Source of the DNA: Alkaliphilus pronyensis
GTDB taxonomy: Bacteria > Bacillota > Clostridia > Peptostreptococcales > Natronincolaceae
Direction of reading: 5' to 3'
Assembly: GCF_009017275.1 (NCBI RefSeq)
Contig: NZ_WBZC01000001.1
Span: 1 to 64,000, forward strand
DNA: 64,000 bases
Made by a program: the position numbers and the translations under genes. Below are positions 2,096 through 42,726 of this stretch, piece after piece; position 1 is the stretch's first letter, and each line of letters starts with the position of its first letter. The notes below the pieces were generated by a model. That model made no database searches. It saw only the letters and a list, made by a program, of their open reading frames with translations, and had not been told where the DNA came from.

Positions 2096-2290
2096 CCCCT
2101 ATTATTAATATTTTCTATGTTATGTTTTCAACAAAAGCTACTACTTTCCTGTGTAAATTTTTCTAAATTTGTAATAATATATCGTCAAAAATCGACAAAT
2201 TAGTGTTTTAGTATACTTGTTCACTATATCTTTTGGGGGTTGAGAATCTTGAGCATAAGCTATATCTCTAATTAATCTTTTCAACAAAAA

Positions 2291-38994: not shown

Positions 38995-39107
38995 ACATAT
39001 CACTCTCCCATAACACTATTTATAATATATATTTTACTTACTTATTCCCAATTACAATGGAAATTATCAATTTTTTATTGATGGATTAAAAGTTATATTA
39101 TCAAAAC

Positions 39108-39181
39108 AAAGCTCGACACCCCCTGTGTATAATGATTATTTCAACATATCAACCATAGGCTACATTGGGATGCCGAGTTTT
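39108..39181. terminator. Hairpin terminator after the selenoprotein gene
   Basis: CTCG and CCGAG with ACCCC and GGGAT form an interrupted stem, with T-rich flanks. Like the hairpin at 38070-38115 it contains ATAGGCTAC before the right arm, so the two may be related. Confidence 0.45.
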
Positions 39182-39195
39182 TAAGCTCTTAACTT

Positions 39196-39489
39196 TTAGT
39201 TGCCACAACCACCGCTATTACCCTTTAATGTTATTGCAAAGCCTTTGCTAAACATGTTCTTTCTGTAGTCTACTTCAATAGCAGGAAATTGCTCATCTAA
39301 GTCCTTTTCTATAACAAACTCTAATCCATCGACTTTTTTTATAATATCAGTTGTTTTTGCCTCATCCAGAGACAAGCCGAATCTTGGACCACCTCAGCCA
39401 ATACCGCTCACATATACTCTTATAGACTTTTCCTCAGGATTTTCTGCTATAAGTATTTCCTTAGCTGCTTCAGTAACTTGTATATTCAT
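39196..39489 (-). CDS. HesB/IscA-like selenoprotein with in-frame UGA
   Basis: 97 residues counting selenocysteine. The ATG at 39489 is 7 nt after AAGGAGG. Codon 32 (39396-39394) is TGA, within VSGIG-U-GGPRFGLSLDEAK, where cysteine homologues have Cys. The frame then stays open for 65 codons, ending NSGGCGN and TAA. Just after the UGA the mRNA can fold UCCAAGA against UCUCUGGA (one bulge), with loop UUCGGCUUG carrying GG about 16 nt after the UGA, a good bacterial SECIS candidate. HesB-like selenoproteins are known in Clostridia. The role is probably iron-sulfur or thiol related; gene callers would miss it because of the stop. Confidence 0.9.
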
Positions 39490-39923
39490 ATAAACTCCTC
39501 CTTTTATGCCCCCCGTGTAGGGGGTATGTGTATAATATTATACATATTATTGGATTAAAAAACAATTATTATCTACTAAATATTTTTATTTTTAATGATT
39601 GTTTTCTATTTCTATATTTATTGTTTCTTCTAATGTCTTTGAATACCCAAGAATAATTATAAGAAAAAACATGCTATTTTTAGCCATTTATAGAGGTTTT
39701 ACATATATAGTTATTTGTATTTTTATGCAATTTCCTTTATAATATATTTTATTATGTTTTTTATATCTAGCTTTTTATATTAAATACCCCTAATGAGGAA
39801 TATACAAATTATTTATGCATAAATAAAATGTATAATTAATTGCAATTCTTCAAATTAATTTGAATTTTCTGATTGACTATGGTATTATTATCTATATATG
39901 TTAAGAAATAATTAAAAGGGGTG
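39490..39923. other. Long AT-rich region before nhaC
   Basis: Mostly featureless. At its end lie the palindrome TTCAAATTAATTTGAA (39849-39864), a -35-like TTGACT (39873-39878) and a -10-like TATATG (39895-39900, 16-nt spacing), placing the nhaC promoter there. No riboswitch was recognised. Confidence 0.55.
39849..39900 (+). promoter_or_regulatory. nhaC promoter with adjoining palindrome
   Basis: A perfect 16-bp palindrome (39849-39864) lies 8 nt before TTGACT, followed after 16 nt by TATATG. Position and symmetry suggest a regulated promoter; the regulator is unknown. Confidence 0.5.
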
Positions 39924-41425: not shown

Positions 41426-41559
41426 TTTTATTTTTAGTAAATCTTTATTATTACTAAGGATAAGTTTTCTTTATATTATGAATATTAATCAATAATGTTT
41501 TAAACTTAGCAACAGTGTGGTATTATATAAATGTTATACTTATTTAGGAGGTGTTTTTA

Positions 41560-42726
41560 TTGGATAAACATCAAAAAATAGCAATTGTTTTATTACCACT
41601 TTTAACCATAGCTATATTAGCAGGTGGAATGCTTTTAATTGAAAGAAGCACAGATGCAGCCGTTTACTCAGATGGCACCTATACAGGTACAGGTGAAGGC
41701 TACAATGATAAAATTACTGTTGAGGTGAAAATTGATGGAGGAAAGATTTCTTCAATTGAACTGCTGGAGATTAACGACACTCCAGGATTAGGTGATACTG
41801 CTGCTATGGAAATTATTGAAAGGATAATAGCTAGTCAATCTACTGATGTTGATGTGGTTTCAGGAGCAACAAAAACCAGTAATGGTACTATACAGGCGGT
41901 TAAGGTTGCTTTAGGGCTTCAGGAAGCTACTGATGAGGAAGCTACTGAAGAGGAAGCTACAGCTCCGCCTGAGCCAATGATATTTGAAGATGGCATTTAC
42001 GAAGGCTCTGCTGCTGGATACAGCGAAGATGGAGACATCAAGGTAAGGGTTGAGGTGGTTGAAGGCAAGATTGTTTCAATAGAAATATTAGAAATAAGCG
42101 ATACTCCTACTATTGGAGACACTGCTGCTGAGGCTACCATAGAAAGCATAATGGAGTATCAATCTACCGATATTGATACCGTTACAGGTGCTACTGTTTC
42201 AAGCCAGGGAACAATTAATGCTGTAATTAACGCCTTTTCTAATGGTGCCATAAGCCTAGAGGAATTAGAAGAAATGGAAGAAGGAACTACAGAAGAGGTT
42301 GAAGAAGAAGTGGAAGTAGTGGAAGAGGAAACTAGTGAGGAACCCAACCAAAGTCAAAGCTCGGAGGAAGAAACCGAAGCTGTAGAAGAGCCTCAAGAGC
42401 AAAAGCCCACTTTAAAGGACGGTACCTATGTTGGTGAGGCTAAGGGCTATTCTGAAGGCTATGAGGGTAGTATTATTAGAGTTGCTGTAACTGTTAAGGA
42501 CGGTAAGGTTTCAAGGGTAGAGCTTGATAGGGAGCTGGCAGAAAAAACCCAGACTAAGGGCTTTGGTGATGTAGCAGCACAAGAGGTTGTAGATGCTGTA
42601 AACAGCTTAAATATTACACTAGAAAACATATCGGCTATTGATGGCATAGATGGTATGACTGGTGCTACAGAATCGACAGATGGAGCCAAAAAAGCTATTA
42701 AAAATGCTTTAGATAAAGCAAAATAA
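41560..42726 (+). CDS. Membrane-anchored protein with three FMN-binding domains
   Basis: 388 aa from TTG at 41560, the codon with AGGAGG at correct spacing. An N-terminal hydrophobic segment (IAIVLLPLLTIAILAGGMLLI) anchors or exports it; no lipobox is seen. Three FMN_bind domains follow (about 35-120, 145-230 and 290-385), each starting DG.Y.G...GY and ending in SGATKTS, TGATVSS and TGATEST, where the motif threonine is the expected covalent FMN site after ApbE modification. Long glutamate-rich linkers join them. It is likely an extracytosolic electron-transfer protein, as in PplA-type systems; its partner enzymes are not in the window. Confidence 0.88.
   Translation: MDKHQKIAIVLLPLLTIAILAGGMLLIERSTDAAVYSDGTYTGTGEGYNDKITVEVKIDGGKISSIELLEINDTPGLGDTAAMEIIERIIASQSTDVDVVSGATKTSNGTIQAVKVALGLQEATDEEATEEEATAPPEPMIFEDGIYEGSAAGYSEDGDIKVRVEVVEGKIVSIEILEISDTPTIGDTAAEATIESIMEYQSTDIDTVTGATVSSQGTINAVINAFSNGAISLEELEEMEEGTTEEVEEEVEVVEEETSEEPNQSQSSEEETEAVEEPQEQKPTLKDGTYVGEAKGYSEGYEGSIIRVAVTVKDGKVSRVELDRELAEKTQTKGFGDVAAQEVVDAVNSLNITLENISAIDGIDGMTGATESTDGAKKAIKNALDKAK

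Follow-up and report, generated by a model that had tools for sequence, protein, structure and literature searches.

A HesB-like family has figured in catalogues of selenoproteins since the 2000s (PMC1794560, PMC13188914). Eleven members were present in the catalogue of 2006 (PMC1794560), and the motif UxGP is given for them in Table 1 of PMC13188914. Mutagenesis together with 75Se labelling identified the HesB-like selenoprotein of Methanococcus maripaludis; a Methanococcus mutant in this protein displayed no defect in nitrogen fixation, and its role was described as unclear (PMC11097638).

The gene described here is a further member of this already listed family. It occurs in Alkaliphilus pronyensis, within a stretch of 64,000 nucleotides that was analyzed as a whole and that we refer to as ‘the window’. 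An initial annotation of the window reported a complete gene with TGA at codon 32; it gave the coordinates, the frame and the number of the codon correctly, and left the strand, which is minus, unstated. The gene comprises 98 codons, the TAA included, and with selenocysteine (Sec) at position 32 its product reads MNIQVTEAAKEILIAENPEEKSIRVYVSGIGUGGPRFGLSLDEAKTTDIIKKVDGLEFVIEKDLDEQFPAIEVDYRKNMFSKGFAITLKGNSGGCGN. The features of the locus, together with one from elsewhere in the genome that is discussed later, are these:

39489..39196, minus strand: HesB-like selenoprotein gene, 97 amino acids, Sec32, ending in TAA; the frame is open through the TGA.
39396..39394, minus strand: UGA for Sec, codon 32; TGA in the close loci, TGT in more distant homologues.
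39374..39358, minus strand: bacterial SECIS hairpin; 6 bp stem, loop UGGAU at 39368..39364, 25 nt past the UGA.
39501..39495, minus strand: ribosome-binding site GGAGGAG, read directly, 5 bases 5' of the ATG.
39527..39506, minus strand: palindrome ATACCCCC-TACAC-GGGGGGCAT, a candidate CsoR-family operator, between the -10 box and the ribosome-binding site.
39542..39537, minus strand: putative -10 box TATAAT, read directly, with TTGTTT at 39565..39560, spacing 17.
L070, about 2130-2152, minus strand: C-run/G-run palindrome before a Fer4_5/CsoR-family operon, shared with the leader of the HesB-like gene.

The initial annotation had likewise mentioned a strong ribosome-binding site. The TATAAT/TTGTTT pair went unreported in a consensus promoter scan because its -35 element is weak. 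Between 39003 and 39982, no minus-strand open reading frame of at least 60 amino acids is listed under the standard code, and ordinary gene calling therefore probably misses the gene, much as the initial annotation had anticipated in saying that gene callers split or drop it. On the 3' side of the gene, at 39100-39200 (minus strand), there is a long imperfect inverted repeat, CTCGGCATCC ... GGTGTCGAG, possibly a terminator; within it is ATTATACACA, which recurs in the promoter region. Elsewhere in the neighborhood, 41551-42726 (plus strand) encodes a protein with three FMN-binding domains (PF04205) that adjoins an Na+/H+ antiporter family protein.

With C written for U, the protein scores 29.7 bits against the Pfam family PF01521, for which the gathering threshold is 26.3, and when the whole genome is searched with PF01521, this gene is the sole match. 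The solved structures related to it (2apn, 1nwb, 1r94 and 1x0g) are all of A-type proteins. Among NCBIfam models its best match is IscA_HesB_Se, followed by TIGR01911 (HesB_rel_seleno). Again with C for U, it falls below the naming cut-offs of both (68.3 bits against 85 for NF038090, and 51.0 against 66.35 for TIGR01911), which are annotation thresholds rather than biological features; each of the 24 aligned proteins matches the two models. The equivalog cut-offs are likewise beyond its reach: 33.6 against 117 for ErpA, 27.5 against 136 for SufA, and 23.4 against 150.6 for IscA. Codon 32 is the site of the first Fe–S ligand cysteine in A-type proteins. With the IscA, SufA and ErpA Fe–S carriers (PF01521), then, the protein shares its domain family and the position of the first ligand, but Sec replaces the first cysteine, and there is one cysteine near the C-terminus rather than the usual CGC, the C-terminal motif of IscA. 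With the HesB-like selenoproteins (TIGR01911/NF038090) it shares more: an A-type sequence, Sec in UGGP at the same position, a bacterial SECIS (bSECIS) directly 3', and a host equipped with the full Sec machinery. It differs from them in scoring under the curated naming cut-offs, in its single C-terminal cysteine (GGCGN), and in the C/G palindrome of its leader.

Proteins of this kind were found in 45 of 60 genomes—that of the window and related ones—mostly with exactly one in-frame TGA, and 30 of these loci, the window's own counted, were read from end to end. Every one of them, at identities down to about 36%, has the TGA at the same codon of the UxGP motif. The initial annotation had held that relatives have cysteine at codon 32. 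This is true of distant homologues, in which the C of a TGT codon aligns with the U of GIGUGGP, but not of the closest relatives, which have TGA. A scan of genome contigs with the protein as query gave no match; a DNA pattern specific for Sec, taken in its place, picked out at least 115 stretches in named genomes. Among the matches listed, these belong mainly to Clostridia (Tissierella, Romboutsia, Desulfosporosinus and Alkaliphilus), with a few to Bacillus and Desulfobacterota. On inspection, all 116 listed matches read as HesB-like, including one that the automatic filter had missed.

The hairpin downstream of the UGA conforms to the published constraints for bSECIS elements. These call for a loop of 3-9 nt, a stem of 4-16 bp, a G at loop position 1 or 2, a distance of 16-37 nt from the UGA, and a minimum free energy of -7.5 or lower; the hairpin has a 5-nt loop, a 6-bp stem, a G at loop position 2 and a distance of 25 nt, and the UGA plus 39 nt folds at -9.9 kcal/mol. 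The folding energy of a longer stretch would not, by itself, have proved a SECIS: over 42-54 nt it is ordinary (z -0.4 to -1.0), whereas that of the 17-nt hairpin taken alone is exceptional (z -3.6). Rfam was searched with the window at gathering thresholds and with the locus at permissive ones, and no family matched, so the case for the SECIS rests on comparative evidence. When 29 distinct sequences are aligned without gaps, 96% of the cells are paired, double-sided changes occur in five of the six pairs, and the covariation score was reached by none of 500 shuffles; shifting the pairing partner by 1-3 columns destroys the signal. RNAalifold independently predicts five of the six pairs, and the UGGA of the loop is invariant in the alignment. 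Trained on 28 relatives, with the window's sequence excluded, a covariance model has a single strong match in the window, at 39396..39349 (60.5 bits, E about 4e-17), the next best scoring 9.0 bits. In Cys homologues the element is gone: the loop CTGGA is absent from all six that were read, CTA, TTA, CTC or CAA taking the place of CTG, and the model scores Cys homologues at no more than 13 bits. The SECIS-like hairpin with GG in its loop that was proposed from the letters is thus borne out, loop UGGAU included, with conservation and covariation far beyond chance, and the bacterial SECIS model that had been suggested as a check singles it out. In one relative (G027), a divergent TGA-containing HesB-like paralogue (MTUAGITY; L066, 391-438) scores only 14.8 bits with the SECIS model, and may use another SECIS type.

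The genome is equipped to decode the codon. SelA, SelB and SelD pass their NCBIfam cut-offs at 618, 385 and 407 bits; selA adjoins selB (L001), selD is nearby, and all are on contig C2, as is a gene for tRNA-Sec (anticodon TCA), some 5 kb away from selB. A second Rfam tRNA-Sec match, on C20, was rejected as tRNA-Ser. SelD carries an in-frame TGA of its own (SAGUAAK). So do GrdA (CFVU) and two GrdB-type proteins (UGTC), of which one has its best match in glycine reductase GrdB and the other in betaine reductase GrdH. Judged from its genes, the Sec-decoding trait is complete. The initial annotation had taken the gene to imply that the organism makes selenocysteine and had proposed a search for selA, selB, selC and selD, the lack of such machinery being what would speak against the idea; the three protein genes, the tRNA and the grdA- and grdB-type TGA genes all support this implication. 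A sense codon at 39394-39396, the other thing that it said would refute the idea, is countered by the recurrence of TGA at this codon in the 30 loci, many of them in other genomes, and all of its proposed checks that are computational gave a positive result.

We conclude, with very high confidence, that the gene encodes a HesB-like A-type selenoprotein in which Sec would be inserted at UGA32 by way of the bSECIS, SelB and Sec-tRNA(Sec), and that this recoding almost certainly takes place in the cell. When a ribosome arrives at UGA32, the hairpin downstream would recruit SelB with Sec-tRNA(Sec), selenocysteine would be inserted, and termination would be avoided. Three other readings of the TGA come to mind. 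That UGA is recoded as another residue—Trp or Cys, through a change of code or a suppressor tRNA—is very improbable: the frame would be open under any such code, but the genome has tRNA-Sec (TCA) and SelB, the hairpin fits the bSECIS model, and the remaining TGA genes encode the known selenoproteins SelD, GrdA and GrdB. That translation really ends at the TGA, in what would be a HesB-like pseudogene, truncated or in decay, might be suggested by the standard-code listing and its lack of a frame of 60 amino acids or more. TGA and hairpin are conserved, however, in 30 loci from many genera, the protein past the TGA is conserved too, and compensatory changes maintain the hairpin, leaving this reading an extremely small probability. 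Smaller still, and to our minds negligible, is the chance of a sequencing or assembly error for TGT or TGC, given that the identical TGA recurs in independent genomes and assemblies, and that the SECIS is present here and absent from the Cys homologues. As to function, the selenoprotein is, by homology, probably an A-type Fe–S carrier, or a related or derived redox factor, since no other A-type protein was found in the genome. Sec32 and the C-terminal Cys95 could form a ligand pair for a metal or cluster, or a redox pair.

How the gene is controlled is a less certain matter. CsoR-family proteins bind mostly pseudo-palindromes with runs of four or more G/C (PMC10318464), and the palindrome of the leader resembles their sites. 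In the 75 nt immediately 5' of the start codon, the motif C4-N3..9-G4 occurs in 21 of the 30 loci, compared with a mean of 1.26 in shuffled sequences. The same motif precedes, on contig C89 of the same genome, an operon that encodes a CsoR-family repressor (PF02583) together with a Fer4_5 membrane protein, where it has a promoter-like stretch on one side and the ribosome-binding site on the other; a like motif is found upstream in 11 of 24 loci with orthologous CsoR-family repressors. In common with the operators of CsoR/RcnR proteins (DUF156, PF02583; PMC10318464), then, the motif is a pseudo-palindrome at a promoter with C and G runs of at least four, and it is common to the repressor's own operon; known from sequence, it is a candidate operator. 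In one genus (g7, three genomes) the HesB gene is present without the motif and without a close repressor orthologue. Motif and repressor co-occur with p 0.012 when genomes are counted and 0.12 when genera are counted, and by the latter figure the association is only suggestive. Beyond this clade the motif is mostly absent, occurring at 15 of the 116 HesB-like Sec genes among the listed pattern matches.

These findings point to a mechanism in which a CsoR-family (DUF156) protein would bind the GC palindrome at the transcription start and repress the HesB-like gene in this clade. We put the chances of such control at about even, and consider it less certain than the recoding. The palindrome might instead act in the leader RNA, as a hairpin controlling translation or stability. 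Its position is 3' of the putative -10 box, as RNA it folds at -11.1 kcal/mol (z -2.7), and its arm-to-arm distance varies among relatives, all of which would suit an RNA element. The same motif nonetheless stands in the same place before the operon that encodes a CsoR-family repressor, such repressors bind just this class of pseudo-palindrome (PMC10318464), and the three g7 genomes, in which the repressor has no close orthologue, lack the motif; we regard the RNA hairpin as possible, if rather unlikely. Returning to the repressor, its identity as CstR, a persulfide sensor, was considered since the copper-site His is Asn in this genome, and was rejected because most of its orthologues keep His-x3-Cys. 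C5/G5 runs are found at a third site (C3:791), which falls at the junction of two genes and was discounted as probably unrelated. Two further arrangements were seen among relatives. In G037 (L223, 3554-5952, minus strand), the TGA-containing HesB-like gene, a CsoR-family repressor gene and a selA-like gene are adjacent on one strand. In two species of genus g7 (L034 and L035), a different palindrome, AAGGCTATAG...CTATAGCCTT, occupies the same place upstream of the HesB gene, and is perhaps a replaced operator.

In the open-access text that we searched, no link between a HesB selenoprotein and CsoR was found. In Natronincolaceae and some neighboring families the HesB-like selenoprotein may—it could as easily be so as not—belong to a CsoR-family regulon whose repressor also controls its own Fer4_5 operon. 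Easily missed by standard gene calling, the gene encodes the only A-type Fe–S protein detectable in the genome, and the Fe–S metabolism of the organism may consequently depend on selenium. The regulon, if real, would tie the HesB-like selenoprotein to a response to metal, persulfide or electrophile stress, and the shared palindrome offers a concrete lead on the function of the family: which signal would release a CsoR-family repressor from this promoter.
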